A stretch of DNA of 64,000 nucleotides from Cyanobacteria bacterium FACHB-63. Lineage in GTDB: Bacteria > Cyanobacteriota > Cyanobacteriia > Leptolyngbyales > Leptolyngbyaceae. The number at the start of each line of letters is the position of its first letter. Positions within the stretch are counted from its first letter, which is position 1. The position numbers were made by a program, and so were the translations under genes. The stretch spans positions 1 through 64,000 of the forward strand of contig JACJNX010000034.1 in assembly GCA_014695255.1 (NCBI GenBank), read 5' to 3'. Shown piece by piece: positions 9,044-43,327 of this stretch. The notes beneath the pieces are model-generated. The model ran no database searches and was not told where the DNA came from. It saw nothing but the letters and a program-made list of their open reading frames with translations.

Positions 9044-10072
9044 ATGGTGAGTCACAAACCGTTTCAACGCCTTCAGCCGCTGTCGTTGTTGGCACAATTA
9101 ATCAGCCGTCGAGTCGATGGGTGCTTGCAAATCATGAGCGAATCAACCTCCTGGTTACTGTATCTCGATGAAGGCAGGCTTGCTTTTGCCACGAATTCGA
9201 TCCAGCCCTTCGATCGCCTCGATCGCATCCTCGTTCAGATGAGCGATCGCATTCCCGCACTGAAACTATTAGATCGGTCGCAATTACGACAGTTTGAGAG
9301 CGTGACCGGAAGCTACCCTGCCAATAGTGCTGATTATCAAGCGATTCAATGGCTGATCGATCAGCAACTCATGGAGCGATCGCAAGTGCGCGAATTGATT
9401 GAAACCATCGCGATCGAGGTGCTGAAACCCTTTCTCACCGTGACAGAAGGGATCTATGAGGTGATTGCAAAAGCTAGCTTTTTAGACTATCCGAATCTTT
9501 GTCAATTGGACTTACGCTCGATCGTAGAGCGCTGTCATTCTGAACTGCGGCAAGTTCCAACTTCCAGAGCAACGAGCGCTGATGTACCAACTCCAGTTCC
9601 GAGTGTCCCAACGACACCGCCGCGACCCCTAAGCTTTACATCTCCAACTGAGCCAGCTCCGACCAGAATTCCAGTCCCGCCGACCCCTATTGCAACCCCC
9701 CAAACCGCCCGTTACACGATCGCTTGTATTGATGACAGCCCCACGGTGCTACAAGCGATTAGTACCTTTCTGAATGACTCTAGCATGGCGGTGATTATGA
9801 TCAACGATCCGGTCAAAGCGCTGATGCAGGTGGTTCGCAGCAAGCCGGATATGATTTTGCTGGATGTCGGAATGCCGAATCTGGATGGATACGAACTCTG
9901 TTCGTTATTGCGTCGCCATCCGAGCTTTAAACAAACCCCCATCATTATGGTGACGGGTCACACAGGTTTCATCGATCGGGCTAAAGCCAAAATCGTGGGT
10001 GCATCGGGTTATTTGACAAAACCTTTTACGCAATCGGAACTCGTCAAAATGGTGTTTCGATATCTCAATTAG
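9044..10072 (+). CDS. PatA/PixG-type response regulator
   Basis: First gene of a chemosensory operon. The 342-residue protein has an N-terminal PatA-like (DUF4388-type) domain of about 165 residues (GCLQIMSESTSWLLYLDEGRLAFA). A proline/threonine-rich linker (about 170-220) follows, then a C-terminal receiver domain. The receiver has the acidic pair in CIDDSPT, the phospho-acceptor Asp in MILLDVGMPNLDGYE, and the conserved Lys in GYLTKPFT. Orthologous positions in Synechocystis are PixG (TaxP1) and PilG, which take phosphate from the CheA-like kinase and act on type IV pili. A CheY follows 34 nt downstream. Pix and Pil assignments cannot be separated by sequence reading alone. Confidence 0.9.
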   Translation: MVSHKPFQRLQPLSLLAQLISRRVDGCLQIMSESTSWLLYLDEGRLAFATNSIQPFDRLDRILVQMSDRIPALKLLDRSQLRQFESVTGSYPANSADYQAIQWLIDQQLMERSQVRELIETIAIEVLKPFLTVTEGIYEVIAKASFLDYPNLCQLDLRSIVERCHSELRQVPTSRATSADVPTPVPSVPTTPPRPLSFTSPTEPAPTRIPVPPTPIATPQTARYTIACIDDSPTVLQAISTFLNDSSMAVIMINDPVKALMQVVRSKPDMILLDVGMPNLDGYELCSLLRRHPSFKQTPIIMVTGHTGFIDRAKAKIVGASGYLTKPFTQSELVKMVFRYLN

Positions 10073-10106
10073 CGCATTTTTGCCCTTTTTACCGTAATGA
10101 AACGTT

Positions 10107-10484
10107 ATGAGCTTAACTTTAATGGGAACAGTTCTAGTCGTTGAAGATACACTCTCGGAAATGGAGCTACTCAGCCATTACCTCCGTGAAGGTGGGTACA
10201 GCGTTGTTGGAGTTGTTTCTGCCAAGGATGCTTTGAGCAAGGCGATCGAGATTAAGCCCGATGTGATTATTACCGATGTGGTCATGCCGGGAATGAGCGG
10301 TTTTGAGCTGTGCCGCAGCCTGAAGAAGAACCCCGAAACTCAAAAAGTTCCAATTATCATCTGTACATCCAAAGGACAGGAAATCGATCGTCTCTGGGGA
10401 ATGCGCCAAGGTGCAGATGTCTACATCACTAAACCTTTTACACGAGAGCAACTGATTCGCGCTGTGCGATCGGTCGGAGGATAA
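10107..10484 (+). CDS. CheY-like single-domain response regulator (PixH/PilH type)
   Basis: A 125-residue stand-alone receiver. It shows VVEDTLSEME (acidic pocket), the phospho-acceptor Asp in VIITDVVMPGMSGFEL, the Thr/Ser of IICTSKGQE and the Lys of YITKPFTREQL. It is the second regulator of the operon and, as in PixH and PilH, probably competes with or complements the PatA-type regulator for phosphate from the hybrid CheA. The next gene starts 3 nt after its stop, so translation is probably coupled. Confidence 0.92.
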   Translation: MSLTLMGTVLVVEDTLSEMELLSHYLREGGYSVVGVVSAKDALSKAIEIKPDVIITDVVMPGMSGFELCRSLKKNPETQKVPIIICTSKGQEIDRLWGMRQGADVYITKPFTREQLIRAVRSVGG

Positions 10485-10487
10485 CCC

Positions 10488-10997
10488 GTGGATAACTCAG
10501 TATTGACCTTAACAACGACTCGAAAGGGGGAAATTGCACCTCCTAATCTCGGAGAGAGTTACCTTAAGTTTGAAGTTGGGCAAGGCACGATCGTTGGACT
10601 GCCAATGAAGCAGGTTCAGGAAGTCGTAGTGCTACAGCCGCGCTATCTCACTCCGATTCCAAATATGGAGCCGGGAATTTTAGGACTGATGCACCGTCGA
10701 AGCCGCGTTTTGTGGGTGATTGATCTGGCGATGATGTTGGAAGTCGGCAGGCTCGATTACAGCCCGCAGCAGTACGATATTGTGATTTTGCGAACGGGTT
10801 CGATTTCCGTCGCGGCGGCAATCAAACGAGTAGACGGGATTGCTTGGACGCTTCCAGAAGCTTTACAACCTGTTCCGAGTCATGTGAGCAAGGGGCTCAT
10901 TCCTTACTCTCGCGGCTGCCTTTTAGAGTCTCAAGAAGTCGTATTCATGCTGGACGGCGAAGCAATTTTGCAAGCTCCGCTGCTTCAGCATTCTTAA
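10488..10997 (+). CDS. CheW-like adaptor (PixI/PilI type)
   Basis: CheW proteins bridge chemoreceptors and the CheA kinase. This 169-residue protein has a single CheW domain (about 25-160): YLKFEVGQGTIVGLPMKQV, IPNMEPGILGLMHRRSRVLWVIDL, and the closing region ending VVFMLDGEAIL. The start is a GTG right after the preceding CheY stop. The position between cheY and the MCP gene is the one taken by pixI and pilI in other cyanobacteria. Confidence 0.88.
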   Translation: MDNSVLTLTTTRKGEIAPPNLGESYLKFEVGQGTIVGLPMKQVQEVVVLQPRYLTPIPNMEPGILGLMHRRSRVLWVIDLAMMLEVGRLDYSPQQYDIVILRTGSISVAAAIKRVDGIAWTLPEALQPVPSHVSKGLIPYSRGCLLESQEVVFMLDGEAILQAPLLQHS

Positions 10998-11092
10998 TTT
11001 TTAAGGTTTGCTTTGTGTTCGATTTTGCGTTTGACTCATCAGGCGATTTGTGCATCTCATCTACTCTATTACCCGTTTGAGAACTCCTACCT

Positions 11093-13894
11093 ATGGTTGA
11101 TCAACTGAACGCCGCCCAACGGGATCAACCCGTCGATCGCGGACTTGATCCGAGTGTAATCGAGGTTTCCTCTAAGCCCGGTGTAGCATCCTCTATAACC
11201 TCCTCCAAACCGCCCGGACTCGCAGCCTTAAGACGATTAAGCTTGAGAACCAAAGCGACGACGATCGCCATCGCGATCGGCACCCTACCCGTTCTAGCCA
11301 TTGGCACGATCGCCTATTCGTTTGCCAATGCTTCGGTGACAAGGCAGGTGATTGCAACGGAAGAAACGCTGGCGACGACGCTCAGCCAGCGGGTGACAAG
11401 CTTTATGACAGAGCGAACCTCAGACTTACAAACGCTCTCCAGCCTGCCGCCTTTAACAGTGCCATCAGTCCGAGACGTGGTGTCTCAAGACGACAAGCGG
11501 CTTGTGCTTGAACGCTTTGTTCAGGAGAAGGGCGTGTATGAAGAAGTGGCGCTGTTTGATTTAAACGGAAATGCCGTACTGCAAAGCGATCGCACCGCGA
11601 TTCCCTGGCAGGGCGAGCAAGACTATTTCCGCGCAGCCTTGCAGTCGAATCGCGTCTTGATTAGTCGTCCGGTGCGGGCAGACAAGACGGGTGCTTATTT
11701 CGTGTATGTGACTGTTCCAGTACAGGAAAGCGGCACGGATAGACGCACGGGAATTATTCGTGCCGTCCTGCCGATTAGAAACCTGGCATCGGAACTGCAA
11801 AACTACAATCGAATCGGCGCTGACTTTAGCTTGTTAGATGCCAGCAATCAAATCTTTCTGTCCTCGAAAGAAGCGCAAATCGGTCAAAATGCTTCTTCGG
11901 TGTATTCGCAGCTTTCACAGATGCAGTCGCGCCGATCGATTAACTCCCGCGAGATCAGCGCAACGGTTGCCAATCAGACAAAGCCTGTTCTTGCTAGCTT
12001 TGTGCCTTGGACGGGGCGTGATCGCCTGCCCGATTTGGGCTGGGACGTGATTCTTTCTGTTCCAACCGATGTCGCATACCAACCCCAGCGCCAGCTCTTT
12101 TGGACATTTTTGCTAGGAACTGGAGCAGCAGTTGTCGCGACGGGATTGCTGGCGAAATGGCTCGCTGATCGCGCAACTCGCCCGATTTTGGCGGCTACAA
12201 GTGCAGTTAAAGCGCTAGGGGACGGCAAGCTCGATACACGAGTCACGGTCAGCAGTGAAGATGAAGTCGGCGTGTTGCAGCGCAACATCAATCTGATGGC
12301 GGGACAACTGCAAGGCTTTGTCGATCAGCAAACCGAAAGCGCTGAACGGGCGCGGTTGTTGAATCAGATTATTTTGCGAATTCGTCGATCGCTCTCGCCT
12401 GAAGATATTTTTGCTGCCAGCGTCGATGAAATTCGCGACTTTATCAAAGCCGATCGCGTGGTGATTTACCGCTTTGCACCGGACTATCTCAGCGGAACGA
12501 TTACGGCTGAATCGGTTGCGCCGGGTTGGACGAAGGCGCTCGGAAAAATTGTTAACGACCCGATGGAGGCAACGCTCGTCGATCGCTACCGGGATGGGCG
12601 GGTGTGGTCGATGGAAAATCTGCGCCAAGCAAACCTCACCCAGTGTCACTGCGAAATTTTGGAGCGGCTAGAAGTTCAGGCAAATATTGTTGCGCCAATT
12701 CTGCAAAACAAAGAGTTAATCGGACTGATCTGTGCCCATCAGTGCGCGAATCCGCGTCAGTGGAAAGCAGAAGAAATTGATTTCTTTGGGCAATTGGCAG
12801 CGCAAATCGGGTATGCGCTTGACCAAGCGTTCTTGCTTCAGCAAACTGAAGCCGCCAGAAAAGCCGCAGAGCAATTATCTGAAGAGCGCCAACAGCAGAA
12901 AGAAGAACTGCAAATGCAGTTGATCGATTTGCTGAGCGAAGTGGAAGGAGCCGTTGAGGGAGATTTAACCGTTCGAGCCGACGTGACCGCAGGTGAAATC
13001 GGCACCGTCGCGGATTTCTTTAACTCGATCGTTGAAAGTCTGCGCCAAATTGTGACGCAGGTGAAATCGGCAGCTGTTCAGGTGAACGATGCGCTGAACG
13101 CGGATGAGCAAGCGGTACGGCAACTGTCCGCAGAAGCGGTGCAGCAAGCTGAGGAAACGAACCGAACGTTAGCTTCCGTGGAAAACATGGTGCGATCGAT
13201 TCAAAAAGTATCGCATAGCGCTCAACAAGCGGCTAACGTGGCGCGGGAAGCCTCTTCGACCGCAGAAGCAGGTGGCATTGCGATGGAATTAACCGTGCAG
13301 AACATTCTGGGACTGCGCGACACGATCGGCGAAACCGCGAAAAAAGTGAAACGTCTGGGCGAATCGTCGCAGCAGATTTCCAAAGTGGTATCGCTGATTA
13401 ATCAAATCGCGATGCAAACGAATTTGCTGGCGATTAACGCCGGAATCGAAGCGGCAAGAGCCGATGAAGGATCGCAAGGATTTGCGGTCGTCGCAGAAGA
13501 AGTCGGAGAATTAGCTGCACGATCGGCAGCGGCAACGCGAGAAATCGAGCAGATTGTCGCCACGATTCAGCGCGAAACGTCTGAAGTCGTCGAAGCAATG
13601 GAGCAGGGAACCTCACAGGTTGTGGAGGGAACGCGACTCGTTGATAATGCTAAACAGAGCTTAGAACAAATTCTCTCGGTGTCGCGGCGGATTGATGACT
13701 TAGTGCAAGCGATTTCAGAATCGACGGTGACACAGGTAGAAACCTCAGATGCGGTGACGCAACTGATGCAGGAAATCGTAGAAGTCGCGGGTCGCACTTC
13801 TTCGGCTTCGCTGGAGGTTTCGCGATCGCTGCGGCAGACGGTTGGGGTGGCAAAAGAGCTACAGGAATCAGTGGGCGCGTTTAAGGTGAGCTAA
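11093..13894 (+). CDS. methyl-accepting chemotaxis protein with Cache-like sensor, HAMP and GAF with Cys-His motif
   Basis: A 933-residue chemoreceptor. A membrane helix near residues 55-75 ([20 protein letters not shown]) is followed by a periplasmic Cache-like domain of about 260 residues. A second helix lies near 335-355 ([19 protein letters not shown]). Then come HAMP ([21 protein letters not shown]), a GAF domain (about 420-590) and the cytoplasmic signalling coiled coil with the conserved tip ([20 protein letters not shown]). The GAF contains VAPGW and, at the site where cyanobacteriochromes attach bilin, LTQCHCEIL with Cys518-His519. A second-Cys DxCF motif is absent (NDPME instead). 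This is the layout of PixJ and PilJ. Bilin binding is possible but unproven. The CheA gene starts 3 nt after its stop. Confidence 0.9.
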
Positions 13895-13897
13895 ACG

Positions 13898-16789
13898 ATG
13901 AAGCAAGATAGAGAGCTTGAGATTCGCCGTCAGTTTCTCGATGAAGCGCAAGAGTATCTGGATACGCTTGATGCCACGATTTTGGGGTTAGCCAATCAGC
14001 CGGTTGATGCGACCCAAGCGAATGCAGCGTTAAGAGCGGCGCACTCGATTAAAGGAGGCGCAGGAATGATGGGATTTCAGGTTCTGAGTGAACTTGCTCA
14101 TCGGCTCGAAGACTCCTGGAAAGTGTTGAAGATTGATAAATCGATCACCGTAACTCCTCGACTCGAAAATCTGCTGCTATCGGCGGTAAGCTGTTTGCGG
14201 CAGGTTGTGGAGTTCGATCGCGACTCGATGCAGCGCCACCAGGCTTCTTGTGTGGACGCAAACTGGCTAGCAGTTGAGGCGTATCCCGTGTTTGATGCGC
14301 TGCATTCAGAATTAGGCGATCCCCAGGAGGAAAACGCTGCCTCGGTGCTGTCGCCGGAAGACGGTCAGGACATCGTGCCACTGTTGTTTGAAACGGAAGT
14401 GGAAGGCTGTTTGCAGCGATTGGAGTCAGTGCTAGCCGCGCCGGATCAGCCTTGTTTGTGCGAGGAAGTTGCGATTCTAGCGCAAGAGCTGGGCGGACTC
14501 GGTGAAATGCTGCAACTGACGAATTTCATTCGGCTTTGCCAATCGGTGTCTCAGCAGATTGAGCAAGAAGAGACCGTCGAAACCGCTCAATCTGCTCTAA
14601 AGGCTTGGCGAATCGCGCAAATGTTCGCGATCGCTGGACAATACGACCAGATTCCCACCTCGATCGCGGGTGCGGAAATCGTTGATTTTGCCGAGCCGCA
14701 GGCGGTGGTCGAGCCGACCGATTGGTTTACCGAAGCGCTTGCCGCCGATAGCTTTGATGATGCAGCCTATACCGACTTTCAACCGATCCCGGAGCCTGCA
14801 CGATCGCGTAGCGCGGCGCAAACGACTCCTGCCCAACCGCAGGTGACCGATTTCAAAGTGCTGGAAGCAGAACCCGAACCTGTAACGGTTGCTGAAGATC
14901 AAGACGCGACGGTGCGCGTTCCGGTGCGGCAACTGAATCAACTCAACGATTTGTTTGGTGAATTAACCATCGATCGCAACGGGTTAGATCTCTACTTAAA
15001 GCGATTACGATCGCTTGCGAGAACGCTGCACGAACGAGTGCAAACGCTCGATCAAGTGAATGCGAAATTGAGATTGGCTTACGATCGCGTAAATTTAGCG
15101 GGAGTCCGAACGCTGGGCGAAAATCGTCGCCCGGAATTTGATGCGTTAGAACTCGATCGCTATGGCGATTTGCATCTACTGTCGCAGCAGGTGATGGAAA
15201 CGATCGTGCAGCTTCAGGAAGTCAGCGAAGATATCGATCTGAGCTTAGACGACACGGAACAGTCCTCGCGGAACTTGAATAAAACCGCGAAACAAATGCA
15301 AAGCGGACTGTCTCAGCTCAGAATGCGTCCGATTTCAGATGTCTTGGATCGCTTTCCGAGAGCGTTACGCGAATGGTCGTTGCAGTACGGCAAGCCCGTT
15401 CGATTTGATATGGCGGGGGGCAGTACGCTGATCGATCGCAACATTCTCGAAACGCTGAACGACCCATTAATGCACCTGTTCCGCAATGCGTTTGATCATG
15501 GAATTGAGGCCTCCAGCGTTCGAGAATCGAAAGGTAAATCGCCGGAGGGCGTGATCGAAATTCGGGCATTCAACGAAGGCAATCGCACGATTATCACGGT
15601 TCGAGATGACGGTGAAGGCATTCCGATTCACAAAATTCGCGATCGGGCGGAACAGATGGGACTCGATCCGGTGCTGCTTGATGCGGCACGAGATGAGGAA
15701 TTGCTGTCGCTGATTTTCGAGCCGGGATTTAGTACAAGCAGCCAAGTCACCGCCCTTTCTGGCCGTGGGGTCGGGATGGATGTGGTTCGCAATAATCTCA
15801 AACAAATCCGGGGCGAAATCAGCGTCAATACCAAAGCGGGACTCGGTACAACGTTTACCTTATCGGTTCCTTTCACCCTTTCGACCGTTAAAGTGTTGCT
15901 GGTTGAAAGTGCGGGAATGTTACTCGCGTTTCCTACCGACGTGGTTTCGGAATTAGTGCTGCTGCAACCGGATCAAATTATTCAAGCTCCGGGTAGCGAA
16001 CTCCTAAACTGGCAAAATCGCATGGTACAACTGGTGCGCCTGCAAAAATGGATGCGCTTCAGTTGTCCGAAAGTTCCTCATGGCTTTGAGACTCCGCCCA
16101 CGATCGCCAATCCTAGTATCCTGATGCTCGACCAAAAGCCGCAATGGTTTGGCATTTATATCGATCGCTGCTGGGGTGAACAAGAAGCGACGATCCGTAA
16201 AGTCGAAGGCAATTTGCCGCTGCCGAGTGGATTTAGCGGCTGTACGATTCTGGGGGATGGTCGCGTTGTACCTTTGGTGAATGCGCCGGAACTGCTGCGC
16301 TGGATTACAAGCTGTGAGCGCTCCGAAACCGAACCAGAACTCGACCGCAATTTCCGCGCCCAACTCACAGCAAGCCTGACTCAGCGCCCCGAACTTCCTG
16401 GAACCTCCATTCCAACCGTGTTAGTCGTCGATGATTCGATTAACGTACGGCGATTCTTAGCGCTGACGCTGGAGCGATCGGGCTATCGAGTCGAGCAGGC
16501 AAAGGACGGACAGGACGCGATCGAGCGGCTTGAATCGGGTTTAGCGGTACAAGCCGTGATCTGTGATATCGAGATGCCAAGGCTAGATGGATATGGATTT
16601 TTGGCAAAGATGCGATCAGATACGCAATTTGCTCAGTTGCCTGTGATGATGTTGACTTCTCGGAGTGGCGAAAAACATCGGAAGCTGGCTGAAAGCTTAG
16701 GCGCATCTGCTTATTTCTCAAAACCTTATAACGAGCAGGTTCTACTCAAAACGCTCGAAAAAATGGTGAACTCGATCGCCGTCGTTTAA
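13898..16789 (+). CDS. hybrid CheA-type histidine kinase with C-terminal receiver (PixL/PilL type)
   Basis: The central kinase of the operon (963 aa). An N-terminal HPt domain carries the phosphorylatable His49 in RAAHSIKGGAGMMGF. A long acidic, poorly conserved linker (about 150-330) precedes the dimerisation and ATPase domains: LMHLFRNAFDHGIEASS (N box), VRDDGEGIP (G1) and ALSGRGVGMDVV (G2). A CheW-like regulatory domain follows (about 660-800). The receiver at the C-terminus has TVLVVDDSINVR, the acceptor Asp in VICDIEMPRLDGYGF and the Lys in YFSKPYNE. Only one HPt is evident, whereas some pilus CheA proteins have several. Confidence 0.92.
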   Translation: MKQDRELEIRRQFLDEAQEYLDTLDATILGLANQPVDATQANAALRAAHSIKGGAGMMGFQVLSELAHRLEDSWKVLKIDKSITVTPRLENLLLSAVSCLRQVVEFDRDSMQRHQASCVDANWLAVEAYPVFDALHSELGDPQEENAASVLSPEDGQDIVPLLFETEVEGCLQRLESVLAAPDQPCLCEEVAILAQELGGLGEMLQLTNFIRLCQSVSQQIEQEETVETAQSALKAWRIAQMFAIAGQYDQIPTSIAGAEIVDFAEPQAVVEPTDWFTEALAADSFDDAAYTDFQPIPEPARSRSAAQTTPAQPQVTDFKVLEAEPEPVTVAEDQDATVRVPVRQLNQLNDLFGELTIDRNGLDLYLKRLRSLARTLHERVQTLDQVNAKLRLAYDRVNLAGVRTLGENRRPEFDALELDRYGDLHLLSQQVMETIVQLQEVSEDIDLSLDDTEQSSRNLNKTAKQMQSGLSQLRMRPISDVLDRFPRALREWSLQYGKPVRFDMAGGSTLIDRNILETLNDPLMHLFRNAFDHGIEASSVRESKGKSPEGVIEIRAFNEGNRTIITVRDDGEGIPIHKIRDRAEQMGLDPVLLDAARDEELLSLIFEPGFSTSSQVTALSGRGVGMDVVRNNLKQIRGEISVNTKAGLGTTFTLSVPFTLSTVKVLLVESAGMLLAFPTDVVSELVLLQPDQIIQAPGSELLNWQNRMVQLVRLQKWMRFSCPKVPHGFETPPTIANPSILMLDQKPQWFGIYIDRCWGEQEATIRKVEGNLPLPSGFSGCTILGDGRVVPLVNAPELLRWITSCERSETEPELDRNFRAQLTASLTQRPELPGTSIPTVLVVDDSINVRRFLALTLERSGYRVEQAKDGQDAIERLESGLAVQAVICDIEMPRLDGYGFLAKMRSDTQFAQLPVMMLTSRSGEKHRKLAESLGASAYFSKPYNEQVLLKTLEKMVNSIAVV

Positions 16790-16860
16790 TGTAAGTTCGA
16801 TTTCAGTGTTGGGTGGTTAATCCAGCTTGAAGTCTTCCAGGACTGGGGGACGAAGGGCAA

Positions 16861-16892
16861 CAATCCAACCTGAACGTCAATCCAACCTGAAC
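16861..16892 (+). repeat. 17-bp-period tandem repeat
   Basis: CAATCCAACCTGAAC occurs at 16861-16875 and again at 16878-16892, with a third degenerate copy to about 16910. It lies in the 176-bp gap between the CheA gene and the second MCP gene, where an internal promoter or leader of the latter could be. Confidence 0.75.
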
Positions 16893-16965
16893 ATCAATCT
16901 AATCCCTAACTTCTCGCAATATTCCTTTCGCTCAAAGCAGCGATGTTTATTTTTGTGTAGCCCTT

Positions 16966-19830
16966 ATGTTAGACCGTTCTTCTCGCCCCACTCGCCCGTT
17001 TTGGTCAAATTGGTTTCATAACTTACCGATCGGGCGAAAACAACTGCTTGCGCTACTGGTCTGTGAACTGATTCCGATCGTCGGACTAGGAATTGGTTCC
17101 TCGATCGTGCTTGCAAATAGTTTACGCACCCAACTGCTTGCCCAAGCAAAATCCGAAGTTGCGGTGACGGAGACGAACTACAACATCAAAATCAATCAGA
17201 TGGGATTCGGATCGCGGGGACAATCGGATAACCCTGCGATCATTACCGCTACAAGAAATCATCAGCGCAGCGAAAATCTTTCAACCGATCTGCAAAATCA
17301 ACTCCAACAGATTTTGCAAAACGAAGTGAAAGCCCGCCGCATAGAATATGCAACCCTCATCGGCAAAGATTTACGCATCATTGCGAATGCAAACAACAAC
17401 CGAACCAAAGAAACGGTGACAACGCCTGAACTGGTGCCGCTGATTCAGCAAGTTCTCCGAGATGGGCAGCAAATCAAAGCCAGTAGCACCGTTAGCTGGG
17501 ACGAACTCAGCAAAGAAGCACCACCCCTTCCCGATCGCTTCAGCAACCAAGATGCGCTCATTCGCTATGTCGTCACGCCCATCCGCGAACCCGAAAATTC
17601 AAACACTATCATCGGCGTTCTCGTCTTTGGCGATATTGTCAACCACAAACTACCGATCGTCGAAAATACTCTAAAAGCCTTTGGTGGCGGCTATAGTGCC
17701 GTGTATTTTCGGCGCGAGAATGATGAATTTGGCTTAGCTAGTGGGCTAAATCAAGACAGCGCTAACCCGAATCAACCTCAAATTGATGCAGCTTTGTCTG
17801 ATTTAGCAATTCTCAAATCGGCGATCGCTGCTAAAGGTAAGACTGTCACCCAGCGAATTCCTGTCAACGGTCAGACTTACACCGTTGCTGCTAAAGCACT
17901 CCCAAACCGCACCGTCGAAACGCCAGATGGAGCCGTTGCAGAAATGGGAGACAATCCCAGCGCCATCTTGGTGCGTGGTACACCTGAAACGGCTCTGAAT
18001 CAATTGCTGCTGACCAGTATGCAGCAAGAAGCGATCGTGTTCGCTTTAGCAATTGGAGCGATCGTCGTCTGGACAATTGTTTTTCGTCGCATCGTTCTTA
18101 AACCAATTCAGGAGTTGCAGCAGGCGACCGAAGCATTTGCCAACGGCGATCGATCTGTCCGGGCTGGAGTGTTTGCTAAAGATGAAGTGGGACAATTGGC
18201 GATCGCGTTCAATCACATGGCAGACAGCATTAACGCTTCTGAAGTTTCTTTGGCAAATGAAGTGTCGCGCCAAGAACAGCAAATGCAAGAAGCTCGGATG
18301 CTGAGCGAAATTACGGTACGAATGCGCCGATCGCTTGAGCCGCTACAAATCCTCCAAACCGCGATCGACGAAGCCCGATCGTTTCTCAACCTCGATCGTA
18401 TCTTGGTCTACGAATTAAAATCCTGCATAGTTAGTGGAACCATAATTGCAGAATCGATCAGATCTGAAAACCTCAGCTTGATTCACAAAACGATCGCATC
18501 TCCATTAGGTTTAGAGCGATTTGAGCAATATAGTACCCAGTCGATTTGGGTGGTCAAAAACGCAGCGAAAGAGATGGACGATCGCTATCGTCAACAGCTT
18601 GCCCAACTGGATATCAAATCTGAAATTGCGGTTCCGCTCAAGCAAGAGAATCAAATTATTGGACTCATCTGTGCTCAAAGTTGTCAACAGGATCGGGATT
18701 GGCAAGTCTCCGAAATCAATTTCTTCGCGCAGCTTGCGACTCAGATTGGATTTGCCTTAGACCAAGTGAAACTGTTACAGGAACACCAATCCGCCATGCA
18801 AACTGCCGAAGATCGTAAGACTTCGCTTCAGCAGCAAATCATTCAGCTTTTGGGTGAAATTCAAACGGTGTCTGCCGGAGATCTCACCGTTCGCGCTAAT
18901 GTCACCGCGAATGATCTGGGAACCGTTGCCGATTTCTTCAATGCCGTGGTTGAAAATCTGCGCGATCTCGTTCTGAAGGTGAAACAAACCTCTGCTCAAG
19001 TCAACGATTTGCTCAACCAAAACGAGGAAGAAGTCCAGCACTTAGCAACTCAGGCGCGTCAACAAGCTCAGGAAACGACCCGTACGCTTAATTCAGTCGA
19101 GCAAATGACGTTAGCGCTGCAAGCCGTTGCCGATCGAGCACAACAAGCGGCGATCGTCGCCCAGAATGCCGCGAATGCCGCAAAATCTGGAGAAACGGTG
19201 ATGGATTCGACCGTGACCAGTATTGCCAATCTCAGAGCAACGGTGGAAGATGCAACCCGCAAAGTCAAGCACTTAGGGGATGCTTCTCAGCAGATTGGGC
19301 GGATCGTTTCACTGATTAGCGATCTCGCAACGCAAACTGATCTCCTTGCCATTAACGCCAGCATTGAAGCTACCCGCGCTGGAGAGCATGGACGTGGTTT
19401 TGGCATTGTCGCGACTGAAATTGGGGAACTTGCGTCTCGATCGACCGCAGCAACCCGCGAAATCGCCGCGCTGATTCAAACCATTCAGGAGCAAGTCACT
19501 GAGGTTGTTGAAGCGATGAATCAGGGTGCAACACAAGTTGTTGAAAGCGCCCACTCCGCCCGCAATGCCAAGCAAAGTCTGATTCATGTCGTGCAGGTTT
19601 CTGAGCAGATGGATGGCTTGGTAAACTCGATCGCGCAAGCAACGGTTTCTCAAACTCGATCGTTTCAGTCTTTAACCAATCTGATCAAAGACGTAGCGGA
19701 AGTCTCGACGCAAACTTCTGATTCATCGGTACGAGTGTCGAAAGCGCTGCGGCAAACAGTTGATGTGGCAGAGGAGCTACAGGCTTCGGTGGGTATGTTC
19801 AAGGTGCAAGGGGACGATCGAGAAATATAG
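16966..19830 (+). CDS. second methyl-accepting chemotaxis protein, GAF without the chromophore Cys
   Basis: A 954-residue receptor with the same layout as the first MCP of the operon. It has a membrane helix near residues 25-50, a large extracytoplasmic sensor region (to about 340), a second helix (IVFALAIGAIVVWTIVF), HAMP (LKPIQELQQATEAFANGDRSV), GAF, and the signalling domain with tip (VATEIGELASRSTAATREI). At the GAF position aligned with Cys-His in the first receptor it has Arg-Tyr (MDDRYRQQLAQL), so covalent bilin binding is not expected. The two proteins are clearly paralogous from HAMP to the end but differ in the sensor region, so they probably report different stimuli to one CheA. 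A 176-bp gap separates it from the CheA gene. Confidence 0.9.
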   Translation: MLDRSSRPTRPFWSNWFHNLPIGRKQLLALLVCELIPIVGLGIGSSIVLANSLRTQLLAQAKSEVAVTETNYNIKINQMGFGSRGQSDNPAIITATRNHQRSENLSTDLQNQLQQILQNEVKARRIEYATLIGKDLRIIANANNNRTKETVTTPELVPLIQQVLRDGQQIKASSTVSWDELSKEAPPLPDRFSNQDALIRYVVTPIREPENSNTIIGVLVFGDIVNHKLPIVENTLKAFGGGYSAVYFRRENDEFGLASGLNQDSANPNQPQIDAALSDLAILKSAIAAKGKTVTQRIPVNGQTYTVAAKALPNRTVETPDGAVAEMGDNPSAILVRGTPETALNQLLLTSMQQEAIVFALAIGAIVVWTIVFRRIVLKPIQELQQATEAFANGDRSVRAGVFAKDEVGQLAIAFNHMADSINASEVSLANEVSRQEQQMQEARMLSEITVRMRRSLEPLQILQTAIDEARSFLNLDRILVYELKSCIVSGTIIAESIRSENLSLIHKTIASPLGLERFEQYSTQSIWVVKNAAKEMDDRYRQQLAQLDIKSEIAVPLKQENQIIGLICAQSCQQDRDWQVSEINFFAQLATQIGFALDQVKLLQEHQSAMQTAEDRKTSLQQQIIQLLGEIQTVSAGDLTVRANVTANDLGTVADFFNAVVENLRDLVLKVKQTSAQVNDLLNQNEEEVQHLATQARQQAQETTRTLNSVEQMTLALQAVADRAQQAAIVAQNAANAAKSGETVMDSTVTSIANLRATVEDATRKVKHLGDASQQIGRIVSLISDLATQTDLLAINASIEATRAGEHGRGFGIVATEIGELASRSTAATREIAALIQTIQEQVTEVVEAMNQGATQVVESAHSARNAKQSLIHVVQVSEQMDGLVNSIAQATVSQTRSFQSLTNLIKDVAEVSTQTSDSSVRVSKALRQTVDVAEELQASVGMFKVQGDDREI

Positions 19831-22661: not shown

Positions 22662-24407
22662 ATGACAGCATTTTGGGATCGTTTGCTTGATTCAAGCTCC
22701 TATATTCCGCACGGACACTGCTATCTTTGGCAAACTGGGCTGGTGTGGCTTCACATCACAGGCGATGCGCTGATTGCACTCTCCTACTACTCAATTCCGA
22801 TCACCCTGTTTTTCTTTGTGCGGAAGCGTCAAGATCTACCGTTTGAGTGGATTTTTCTGCTATTTGGAGCTTTTATTATTTCCTGCGGAACGGGTCATTT
22901 GCTCGACATTTGGACGTTGTGGCATCCGGACTACTGGATTTCAGGCGGCTTAAAAGCGGTGACTGCGATCGTGTCAGTCCTGACTGCTGTGGAACTTTAT
23001 CCGCTGATTCCCAAAGCGTTGGCACTGCCCAGCCCAACCCAACTTGCTCTCACCAATCAAGCGCTCCAAGTTCAAATCGGAGAACGCCGTCAGGCTGAAC
23101 TAGAACTAAAGCGCCATCAAGACCAACTTGAAGAATTAGTGGCACAACGTACTGCTGAACTGACGGCGATTAATAAGCAACTTCAGCAAGAAATTGTCGA
23201 GCGCCAGCGCATTCAGGAAGAACGAGAATTGTTGTTGCAGCGAGAGCAACGAGCGCGAGAACAAGCTGAGTCTGCCAATCGCGTCAAAGATGAATTTCTT
23301 GCCGTTCTGTCCCACGAACTTAGAACCCCGCTCAATCCGATTTTGGGTTGGACAAAACTTTTACAGCGACAGCAGCTAAACCCAGAGAAAGCAGCGATCG
23401 CCCTCGACACGATCGAGCGCAATGCCAAACTACAAGCGCAGCTAATCGAAGACCTGCTGGATATTTCTCGCATAATGGGCGGAAAGCTGACCCTCAATGC
23501 TGCTGCAACCGACCTAAAGACGGTAATGCTTGCGGCGATTAGTACCGTTTCCCTAGCGGCTGAAGCAAAACAGATTCGGATCGAAACCCACTTTGATGCG
23601 GGGGTCGGACAAGTTCTGGGAGATGCCGGACGATTGCAGCAGGTAGTGTGGAACTTGCTCTCCAATGCAGTGAAGTTTACACCCGAAGGCGGTCGAGTCG
23701 AAGTGAGCTTAGCTCATCGGACGAATGAGCGCTCAGACTCTGCTACCATTACCGTCCGAGATACGGGCAAGGGAATTGGGGCGGCTGCGCTTCCGCATGT
23801 GTTCGATCGCTTCTGGCAAGAAGACAGTACCAATACGCGCCAATTTGGTGGTTTAGGGTTAGGGCTGGCAATTAGTCGTCAAATTGTGGAGCTTCACGGT
23901 GGGATTATTACTGCCGAAAGCGCAGGTGAGGATCAGGGAGCGACCCTTACGGTGAGTTTGCCCCTTTGCGCTACGGCTGCGGTTGTGGCTCCAGAACGAT
24001 CGCGCCCTGAAGAAAATTCGACTTTAGCAGGGCTGCATATCTTAGTGATTGATGATAGTTGTGACTCTCGCGAGTTTGCTGCATTCGTTCTGAGTCAGGC
24101 AGGCTCAGAGGTGACAGTGGTTGATTCTGCCAAAGCTGCTCTGCATATGCTGTCTAACTCTTGCCCAGATGTGATTATCTGCGATATTGGGTTACCAGAA
24201 ATGAGTGGTTACGAATTCATTCAACAGCTCCGATCGCGTCCGGCAGAGCAAGGGGGTAGAGTGGTAGCCATTGCCCTAACTTCTTATGCAAGCGACGACG
24301 ATCAGAAGCTTGCGATCGAGTCTGGATTTCAGCAGCATTTATCTAAGCCGGTCGAACCGGAGCGCTTGATTCAGACGATCGCAGCAGTCTGCCAGCCCGT
24401 TGCGTAG
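22662..24407 (+). CDS. hybrid histidine kinase with ETR1-type ethylene-binding domain
   Basis: A 581-residue membrane kinase. The first 120 residues form three hydrophobic helices that match the ethylene-binding domain of plant ETR1 and of Synechocystis Slr1212 (SynEtr1): ALIALSYYSIPITLFFFV and FGAFIISCGTGHLLDIWTLW. Every residue known to matter for copper/ethylene binding in ETR1 (Asp25, Tyr32, Ile35, Pro36, Ile62, Cys65, His69) is present at a constant offset of ten: Asp35, Tyr42, Ile45, Pro46, Ile72, Cys75, His79. A coiled coil (about 125-205) leads directly into HisKA (phospho-His218 in LSHELRTPLNP). The ATPase domain follows (VWNLLSNAVKFTPEGG, DTGKGIG, GGLGLGLAI). A C-terminal receiver has its Asp in VIICDIGLPEMSGYE. 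No GAF domain lies between, unlike ETR1 and Slr1212. The ligand is inferred, not shown. Confidence 0.92.
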   Translation: MTAFWDRLLDSSSYIPHGHCYLWQTGLVWLHITGDALIALSYYSIPITLFFFVRKRQDLPFEWIFLLFGAFIISCGTGHLLDIWTLWHPDYWISGGLKAVTAIVSVLTAVELYPLIPKALALPSPTQLALTNQALQVQIGERRQAELELKRHQDQLEELVAQRTAELTAINKQLQQEIVERQRIQEERELLLQREQRAREQAESANRVKDEFLAVLSHELRTPLNPILGWTKLLQRQQLNPEKAAIALDTIERNAKLQAQLIEDLLDISRIMGGKLTLNAAATDLKTVMLAAISTVSLAAEAKQIRIETHFDAGVGQVLGDAGRLQQVVWNLLSNAVKFTPEGGRVEVSLAHRTNERSDSATITVRDTGKGIGAAALPHVFDRFWQEDSTNTRQFGGLGLGLAISRQIVELHGGIITAESAGEDQGATLTVSLPLCATAAVVAPERSRPEENSTLAGLHILVIDDSCDSREFAAFVLSQAGSEVTVVDSAKAALHMLSNSCPDVIICDIGLPEMSGYEFIQQLRSRPAEQGGRVVAIALTSYASDDDQKLAIESGFQQHLSKPVEPERLIQTIAAVCQPVA

Positions 24408-41037: not shown

Positions 41038-43185
41038 TCAACTCCACATTAACTGCCGCACCGGAATTTCAATTACAAAGGTTGCACCCCGCTTTGAGGG
41101 ACGATCGCAGCTTAATCGCCCTCCATGCTGCTCAGTCACAATCTGATAGCTCACAGATAGTCCCAATCCTGATCCCTGACCCACAGGCTTTGTCGTAAAA
41201 AACGGATCAAACAAACAGCGCTGGGTTGTCGCAGTCATGCCGATTCCGTTGTCTGTGATTGAAATCCGCGCCCACTCGGTTGAATCTAACTGTTGAAACA
41301 GCGAAGTTTTGACTTTAATTTCTGGAGTAAAGTCAATTTCTTCTGCCAGCCAGCGCTCGTTGATCGCATCGATCGCATTCGAGAACACATTAATAAAGAC
41401 CTGATTCAGCAAGCCTGCGTAACATTGGACTTTTGGTAGAGCGCCGTAGTCTTTGACAATCTGAATGGTTGGACGCAGTAACGGACTACCGCAAGCTCGA
41501 TTTGACTTTAATAGATGCTGTAATAGCATTAACGCGCTCTCAATGCCTTCATGTAGATCAACTGCTTTTAGATCCGCTTCATCATGGCGTGAGAAATGTC
41601 TGAGCGATCGTACAATATCACGAATGCGTTCTGCTCCAGTTCCCATTGAGTCCAGCAGCTTCATTAAGTCGTGGCGCACAAATTCTAAATCAAGGTCTTC
41701 GAGTTCCTCGGTAATCTGTTCACTAGGAACCGGATGATCGGTTTGATAAAGCTGAATGATCCGCAGCAAATCTTCGATATATTCTTTTGCGTGTTCAACG
41801 TTGCCGTAGATAAAACTGACCGGATTGTTAATTTCGTGAGCAATGCCCGCAACTAATTGCCCCAAGCTCGACATTTTTTCATTTTGAATTAGTTGTGCTT
41901 GAGTTTTTTGCAGTTGTTTGAACGCCGATTCGAGCTTCTGGGCTTGTTGGCGTAATTGTGCTTCGGATTGTTTGAGTGCAAGCTCAGCTTGTTCGCGATC
42001 GGCTTCGAGTCGGATGCGATCGCTGATGTCTCGAACCATCGAAACGACACCGATAATGTTGCCCTCTGTATCTAAAATCTGATTGTTGTACCACTCGCAA
42101 ACAATAGTTTCTCCATCTCCCCTGAGATTCTGGTTGATGCTGTGGATTTCGCCTTGGCACTCAAATAACGTTTTAACAATTTCATTCACTTTTGCTTGAT
42201 CTTGCTCTGGAACCCAATGGTTTCCATGCTCTCCGATCGCACGATCGCGGGCGATCTTAAAAATCTTTTCGGCTGCTGGATTCCATTCTTTTGCTGTAAA
42301 TTCTGGTGTCCACTCAATAATCCCCATCGGTGCGTGTTGCACCAGCATCGATAATCGTTGTTCTGACTCTACGAGTGCAACTTCTGCTTGTTGTCGCTCG
42401 GTTTCGCTTCTGATCCGATCGGTCATATCTATCCCCATCGAAACAATGCTCACAATGTTACCGTTGGGTGCTAACAATGGGTAGTGATACCAATCGCAGA
42501 TGATCTTTGTCTGAGTTCCGTGGGCTTGAATCTGCTGAATTGCTCCTAATTGCGTCACAAAGGGCTGAACCTGATCGAGGATTTCACCGACTGCAAGTTC
42601 GGGTAAGACTTCTCTGATCGATCGTCCAACGACTTTTGATCGAGGATAGCCAAAAACGTTTTCAGCCATAGCATTCCAGGTTTGGATCGTATAGTCGATG
42701 TTCCATTCCACAAACATGAACGGCGATTGCTGAACTAGCAGCGTGAGACGGCGCCGCGATCGCAGTAAGGCTGCTTCTGCTGCTTTTCGCTCCTGAATTT
42801 CCTGTTGAATCTCAGTAGGTTTAACGTCTGACTGTCTGATCGGATCCTCGATCGTTGCCACAATAAAAGGAGTTCCGTTTGCATCGCGCACGATCGACTT
42901 GACCACTGAAACGGCTTGCGCCTTTCCGTCAGCATCGTAGAGATAGCCTGCTTGAGTGATATCAGTTTCGCGAGTGAAAACGTCTTCAACTTCTCTTAAT
43001 TCTGCGGAGAAGATGCGGGCATTTTCGAGCAGTTGTGAAGCGGTGTAGCGCGATCGTGCGACAAGGGCGCGATTAACGAACACAACGCGAGCGTGACGAT
43101 CTTGAATAAAAATTGGAGCCGCAACTCGATCGAGAACCTGATAAAGACTCAGTGCTGCGGTTGTCTCAATCTCCTTACCAATCAT
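41038..43185 (-). CDS. PAS-domain sensor histidine kinase
   Basis: A soluble 715-residue kinase. Three PAS domains are visible: about 10-130 (APIFIQDRHARVVFVNRALV), 155-275 (SPFMFVEWNIDYTIQTWN) and 290-405 (APMGIIEWTPEFTAKEWNPAAEKIF), each of the last two followed by a PAC-like segment. A coiled coil leads to HisKA with GIAHEINNPVSFIYGNVEH and the ATPase domain (NQVFINVFSNAIDAI, ITDNGIGM, GQGSGLGLSVSY). This is the NtrB/HK4-like class. The start at 43185 (MIGKEIE) has AGGGA 8 nt upstream; the ATG at 43206 is alternative. It sits between genes for a sugar-binding protein and an ABC ATPase and could sense the transported solute. No regulator is adjacent. Confidence 0.88.
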   Translation of the reverse strand: MIGKEIETTAALSLYQVLDRVAAPIFIQDRHARVVFVNRALVARSRYTASQLLENARIFSAELREVEDVFTRETDITQAGYLYDADGKAQAVSVVKSIVRDANGTPFIVATIEDPIRQSDVKPTEIQQEIQERKAAEAALLRSRRRLTLLVQQSPFMFVEWNIDYTIQTWNAMAENVFGYPRSKVVGRSIREVLPELAVGEILDQVQPFVTQLGAIQQIQAHGTQTKIICDWYHYPLLAPNGNIVSIVSMGIDMTDRIRSETERQQAEVALVESEQRLSMLVQHAPMGIIEWTPEFTAKEWNPAAEKIFKIARDRAIGEHGNHWVPEQDQAKVNEIVKTLFECQGEIHSINQNLRGDGETIVCEWYNNQILDTEGNIIGVVSMVRDISDRIRLEADREQAELALKQSEAQLRQQAQKLESAFKQLQKTQAQLIQNEKMSSLGQLVAGIAHEINNPVSFIYGNVEHAKEYIEDLLRIIQLYQTDHPVPSEQITEELEDLDLEFVRHDLMKLLDSMGTGAERIRDIVRSLRHFSRHDEADLKAVDLHEGIESALMLLQHLLKSNRACGSPLLRPTIQIVKDYGALPKVQCYAGLLNQVFINVFSNAIDAINERWLAEEIDFTPEIKVKTSLFQQLDSTEWARISITDNGIGMTATTQRCLFDPFFTTKPVGQGSGLGLSVSYQIVTEQHGGRLSCDRPSKRGATFVIEIPVRQLMWS

Positions 43186-43327
43186 CGTGGAATCCCTGAT
43201 ACACATTCTTTCTAGGATTCCCAGAAAGGGATTTTTATTACGTCAGGAATCTATATGCTCTAACGCAAAATAGCGCCGAATCCTGTTATCCAGAACAGAG
43301 TTTCGGGCGACGAATTCTTAGTCTCAG

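Follow-up and report, generated by a model that had tools for sequence, protein, structure and literature searches.

We identified a gene that probably encodes a membrane-bound, copper-dependent ethylene sensor kinase – one in which the third membrane helix would drive the kinase through a single continuous coil, with a PAS domain as an optional addition to the intervening linker. The gene lies within the 64-kb stretch of DNA analysed here (the window), and our reading of it combines sequence, a structure model, and analogy with characterized receptors. The gene itself is an ordinary find. PAS-less receptors are simple test objects that consist of one sensor, one helix, and one kinase. We know of no account, in structural detail, of signal transfer from an ethylene sensor to its kinase, and a Protein Data Bank sequence search with the window's ethylene-binding domain (EBD) returned a best E of 0.6.

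Domain layout and putative ethylene-binding residues

Table 1. Receptor gene, its encoded domains, and the nearby taxis cluster (positions in the window).
Feature	Position	Strand	Basis or remark
Ethylene-receptor-type hybrid histidine kinase, 581 aa, ATG start	22662..24407	+	Intact ORF; start region conserved in 4 congeners
Ethylene-binding domain ETR1_N (PF25487), aa 27-122	22740..23027	+	Pfam
Predicted membrane helices, aa 25-55, 62-87, 91-120	EBD region	+	AlphaFold2 model
Segment with Asp35, Tyr42, Ile45, Pro46, Ile72, Cys75, His79	22764..22898	+	BLASTP against ETR1
Helical linker, aa 123-208	23028..23285	+	Site occupied by PAS in longer relatives
HisKA, aa 209-272, phospho-acceptor His218	23286..23477	+	Pfam
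HATPase_c, aa 320-435; N335, D367/G369/G371, G397/G399/G401 intact	23619..23966	+	Pfam and residue check
Receiver (Response_reg), aa 460-573; Asp508 as expected phospho-acceptor, Lys562 present	24039..24380	+	Pfam and residue check
Pix/Pil-like taxis cluster: DUF4388-receiver protein, CheY-like single receiver, CheW, Cache-HAMP-GAF chemoreceptor, CheA with Hpt and receiver, second HAMP-GAF chemoreceptor	9044-19830	+	

The match to ETR1_N reflects homology rather than chance, since it scores 147.7 bits (E 1.2e-43) against a curated Pfam cut-off of 27 bits. With HisKA, HATPase_c, and receiver domains and both His218 and Asp508, the protein is a hybrid histidine kinase. No PAS or GAF domain was detected in it by Pfam at E<=0.001, and a UPF0242 match (30.5 bits) fell under its cut-off of 33.5. 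Judged by its sequence, the linker – 86 residues between the EBD and HisKA – is too short for either domain. Consistent with the initial annotation, which had described a GAF-less sensor joined through a coil to a kinase with a C-terminal receiver, both the Pfam domain order and the helical linker support this arrangement. Comparison with four congeners gave whole-gene dN/dS values of 0.167, 0.099, 0.062, and 0.050 (dS being near saturation in the last three), which indicates that the receptor gene is under purifying selection; its sole fast-evolving part is the hinge at residues 436-459, where dN/dS reaches up to 1.2. Promoter and terminator scans around the gene returned matches no more numerous than in shuffles. 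Across the window, neither Rfam at its gathering threshold nor a tRNA scan produced a match.

All seven residues implicated in ethylene binding are present. We aligned the protein by BLASTP with ETR1 residues 1-134 and found that query residues 34-93 aligned at a constant offset of ten. Because there is no gap up to residue 93, all seven pairs fit the ETR1 positions (Asp25, Tyr32, Ile35, Pro36, Ile62, Cys65, and His69), as the initial annotation had proposed. That seven residues are needed in AtETR1 is stated, without numbering, in a published study (PMC6682694). A complete set is the rule: it occurs in 212 of the 227 distinct ETR1_N domains that we fetched (104/110 in a smaller, earlier set). 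Together with the 34 sequences of the same domain order described below, this argues against the suggestion that the architecture and residue set are special.

We observed differences in constraint among the seven positions. All 227 distinct domains have the Tyr, Cys, and His, and 221 have Asp at the Asp35 position, while the Ile45, Pro46, and Ile72 positions vary in 4, 8, and 3, respectively. This pattern is what would be expected if the domain bound copper but sensed another cue – Cu(I), redox state, or another small gas or alkene – with ethylene not being the physiological ligand. Three hybrid kinases that lack PAS and have a variant sensor (L117:2828-4669 (-), L230:1684-3405 (+), and L231:1020-2741 (-)), spread over three cyanobacterial families, point the same way: they keep Asp, Tyr, Cys, and His, carry Val, Ala, and Phe at the Ile45, Pro46, and Ile72 positions, and have a two-residue insertion preceding the Cys. 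With three of the seven residues changed on the same scaffold, another ligand is allowed for part of the group, and a ligand change in these three proteins is possible on sequence grounds. For the window protein we consider a different ligand unlikely: it has all seven residues, and ethylene binding, with responses at 1-8 nL/L, is reported for Synechocystis, Geitlerinema, and Azospirillum (PMC6682694, PMC11819568). Six further proteins (L026, L243, L245, L250, L251, and L252) have Asn at the position of Asp35 (ETR1 Asp25) and retain the other six residues; they constitute a natural test of the Asp requirement.

We favor ethylene as the ligand of the window protein, inferring binding by analogy with SynEtr1, Geitlerinema cells, and AzoEtr1, for which it is reported (PMC6682694, PMC11819568). 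Cu(I) held by Cys75 and His79 of a dimer would bind ethylene, the third membrane helix would then alter its tilt or twist, and a parallel coiled coil would relay this change to the kinase. By analogy with what has been proposed for Synechocystis Etr1 and plant receptors, ethylene would probably lower autophosphorylation of His218; inhibition by ethylene is described as the favored model for Etr1 (PMC6508509). Phosphate would pass from His218 to Asp508 and on to a putative Hpt protein and response regulator. The host genome contains 13 Hpt places. The receptor gene has no response regulator gene as an immediate neighbour, unlike the slr1212-slr1213 arrangement.

An apparently optional PAS slot and the length of the predicted coil

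Longer relatives of the window protein differ from it by a PAS domain. Setting aside one GAF-bearing protein (L098), we detected PAS in 13/13 Pfam-scanned HisKA-type relatives with longer linkers (L121, L123, L128, L144, L168, L177, L148, L194, L145, L137, L147, L247, and L248). The nearest of these on the tree – L168 and L177, with linkers of 204 versus 77 residues in the window protein, and L148, with 348 – all carry PAS, and the Nostoc and Calothrix forms L121, L123, L128, and L144 (linkers of 204-206) have PAS and lack GAF. Since the longer relatives scanned have PAS rather than GAF, the absence of GAF that the initial annotation emphasized is real but GAF is the wrong yardstick, and we rejected loss of a GAF domain as the origin of the window gene. 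The excluded L098 (3022-6183 (+)) is the sole ETR1_N match of congener G402, and combines an EBD with Ser at the Pro46 position, a GAF domain, a kinase, and three receivers.

Between relatives, PAS is present or absent as a unit, at a single linker site. Comparing L122 (Calothrix NIES-4101) with L121 and L123 (C. elsteri and Calothrix CSU_2_0), the window clade with L168 and L177, and L172 with L194, we found near-colinear flanks that differ by a single linker block, at a site adjoining the helix motif LQQEI-ER. The best PAS model is PAS_9 in L168 and L177 and PAS_3 in the Nostoc forms; these different models suggest turnover in the slot rather than a single loss. On a kinase-core tree restricted to the kinase family of the window protein (55 rows, labelled by linker length under or over 100 rather than by scanned domains), six short/long linker changes are required, and well-supported branches force four of these. 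A wider tree of 79 rows labelled in the same way, for which the tool warned of long branches, requires nine, all nine forced by such branches, but there the joining of an EBD to a new kinase may count too. We conclude from these sequence comparisons that the slot is optional and appears to have changed state repeatedly – in the kinase family of the window protein, no fewer than four to six times.

In place of a PAS domain, the window protein is predicted to have an uninterrupted helix. An AlphaFold2 model (a monomer built from a 22-sequence alignment; mean pLDDT 78.2, pTM 0.47) places a single helix at residues 125-235, containing His218, after the three membrane helices. Block means of pLDDT are 86-93 for residues 141-200, lower in the membrane part (54-78 in blocks covering residues 21-120), and drop to 74 and 69 near His218. 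The linker reads QRT-AEL...LQQEI; its Gln-Arg-Thr at 162-164 is similar to ERT, the signature of the signalling helix (S-helix), described as an ~40-residue parallel coil (PMC1592074), and in the monomer model the helix is continuous.

We measured the distance from the sensor end (Pro123-Ser-Pro) to the phospho-histidine in HisKA-type receptors. Among 45 distinct sequences under 170 residues – a cut-off chosen after inspecting the data – the distances are 49, 60, 74, 81, 88, 95, and 102, and six of these seven lengths (all except 49) equal 4 modulo 7. In 20,000 random draws, six of seven lengths never fell in one phase, though the draws ignore descent and treat as independent lengths that are not. 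The out-of-phase class of 49 comprises 14 sequences and is a Nostoc class. Four HELR-type sequences just above the cut-off (174-188, in other phases) all carry PAS according to Pfam, and receptors with HExNNP kinases span several phases: 44, 65, and 72 (phase 2), 83 and 111 (phase 6), and 129 (phase 3).

We read the single phase as support for a rigid coil that connects the kinase with the third membrane helix. We tentatively propose, while holding it improbable as a whole, that HisKA-type receptors without a cytosolic sensor obey a seven-residue length rule (60/74/81/88/95/102), that the Nostoc-type 49 class, being in another phase, may respond to ethylene with the opposite sign, and that the linker serves as a plug-in slot for PAS domains, which are gained and lost there. 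There is precedent in the photoreceptor kinase YF1, where linker length has a heptad-dependent effect and one residue inverts the sign, and heptad periodicities are reported for several LOV and phytochrome families (PMC6798134). The series could instead be a by-product of shared descent – few lineages and repeat slippage – that is silent on signalling, an explanation to which we give appreciable weight though less than an even chance. Several of the lengths occur inside one kinase family, coiled coils accumulate heptad-sized indels, and the 49 class is out of phase. Against descent, length 95 is seen again in another kinase (L220, HDIRTP), HELRTP and HDLKAP kinases both include lengths 88 and 60, none of the other moduli between 3 and 12 shows the pattern, and heptad slippage would itself imply selection against other lengths. 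If the length rule is true, a linker-length series could reveal the direction of membrane-helix motion upon ethylene binding, and the design of ethylene-controlled kinases would be possible. A literature search combining ethylene receptor with heptad, coiled coil, and transmembrane returned only work on plant GAGA factors, and we regard the heptad pattern in PAS- and GAF-less HisKA-type receptors as modestly new.

Distribution and genomic context

ETR1_N is widespread in cyanobacteria. We found it in 90 of 386 genomes drawn evenly across the phylum (62/143 genera) and in 36 of 42 genomes of the host's family. A search for the GAF-less architecture elsewhere, as the initial annotation had proposed, collected 34 distinct ETR1_N-HisKA-HATPase-REC sequences with a short linker, including the window protein; this set is defined by linker length and receiver, and none of the 22 that were Pfam-scanned has PAS or GAF. 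Thirteen sequences match the window protein in both kinase type and exact spacing, among them those of Phormidium tanganyikae FI6-MK23 (L119), Phormidesmis priestleyi ULC007 (L124), Calothrix NIES-4101 (L122), and Nostoc FACHB-973 (L172). The design being common to many cyanobacteria, the gene is a good but ordinary example, and a unique architecture is ruled out by this survey of relatives.

Nor is the protein a minimal ethylene-sensing kinase, as had been supposed, because non-hybrid forms of 410-426 residues exist (L151, 410 aa; L162, 426 aa; L237, a 414-aa frame). Of 35 HELR/HDIR kinase-type sequences at short distance, the window protein among them, 34 have a receiver; the remaining one, L089, is a frame of 247 aa with an early end. 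Among the 80 best loci of a named-genome scan – a set biased by its query alignment (A2), which was built from PAS-less proteins – 12 have an EBD, HisKA within 100 residues, and a receiver, 44 have a longer linker, and 24 have no HisKA match above 40 bits. The 273 EBD frames gathered overall are a non-random set, in that best-ranked loci were fetched and short frames then deliberately chosen; ratios within it are therefore not prevalences. They include 134 distinct sequences with both anchors and 49 frames without a recognised H-box.

The same domain order occurs outside cyanobacteria on a plasmid (NZ_CP106953.1) of Eleftheria terrae, a soil betaproteobacterium. This receptor-type hybrid kinase (L199:3932-5692 (+)) is encoded on a plasmid typed as mobilizable, and its distance from the Cu-binding His to the phospho-His, 93, is that of the Nostoc class; it was among the frames lacking a PSP-like motif that the distance survey skipped. 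Phage records searched contained no EBD match. A text search of the literature, of limited coverage, did not find a GAF-lacking ethylene receptor hybrid kinase; we do not claim that the PAS- and GAF-less form is undescribed, and a review already covers EBD proteins of bacteria, whose outputs range 'from simple to complex' (PMC7700396).

Within the host genome (7.23 Mb, 179 contigs) the window protein is the sole ETR1_N match found. Four of the seven congeners searched have the whole gene (77-91% identity), G406 has a receptor fragment located where a contig ends, the only receptor of G402 is a different one, and no ETR1_N match was found in G407. A truB-DUF1400-receptor-DUF3611-hydrolase block is conserved in all four congeners with the whole gene. 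The presence of a response-regulator/CheY/CheW/MCP/CheA/MCP cluster nearby (Table 1), along with reports of altered phototaxis under ethylene in Synechocystis and Geitlerinema (PMC6682694), raised the idea that the receptor belongs with this cluster and tunes phototaxis. We consider this quite improbable. Two minus-strand genes separate the cluster from the receptor, and in the four congeners, judged with about 14.7 kb of upstream sequence, the cluster adjoins truB and the receptor only in the closest (L100) – a weak link at 1/4, compared with 4/4 for truB-DUF1400-receptor-DUF3611.

Elsewhere in the window, the listed start of a PAS-containing kinase ORF (41038-43206 (-)) reads MCIRDS, which resembles the translation of a sequencing adapter. 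Adapter read-through was rejected, with no adapter match in the window at <=2 mismatches and no exact match in the genome. Translation may instead begin at the Met of codon eight.

Comparison with known receptors

The receptor of Synechocystis PCC 6803, SynEtr1 (Slr1212, also called UirS), resembles the window protein in being a cyanobacterial EBD that feeds a histidine kinase. SynEtr1 binds ethylene and has PAS, PAC, and a light-sensing GAF, with signalling modelled to the neighbouring slr1213 (PMC6682694, PMC6508509), whereas the window protein has no cytosolic sensor, its own receiver, and no adjacent response regulator. GeiEtr1 and GeiEtr2 of Geitlerinema PCC 7105 are likewise cyanobacterial EBD kinases with all seven residues (PMC6682694); GeiEtr1 is an EBD-GAF-kinase without a receiver and GeiEtr2 has PAS, PAC, and GAF plus a receiver, while the window protein has a receiver and neither PAS nor GAF. 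AzoEtr1 of Azospirillum brasilense, an EBD kinase for which ethylene binding is reported as demonstrated (PMC11819568), has an EBD-PAS-kinase order and a response regulator encoded by a separate gene, in contrast to the PAS-less window protein with its own receiver.

Arabidopsis ETR1 shares the EBD, histidine kinase, receiver, and seven residues. It differs in having a GAF domain and two N-terminal cysteines, compared with one in the cyanobacterial proteins (PMC6682694) and Cys20 in the window protein. With a single N-terminal Cys and no GAF, the window protein departs from the architecture of the plant ETR1 subfamily, and plant signalling is described as running via CTR1/EIN2 (PMC7700396). 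Close counterparts also include PAS-bearing cyanobacterial relatives – such as L128 from a Nostoc cyanobiont, L121 and L123 from Calothrix, and L168 and L177 – which have the same EBD, kinase family, receiver, and linker flanks but contain ~127-129 extra residues, with PAS, that are absent from the window protein.
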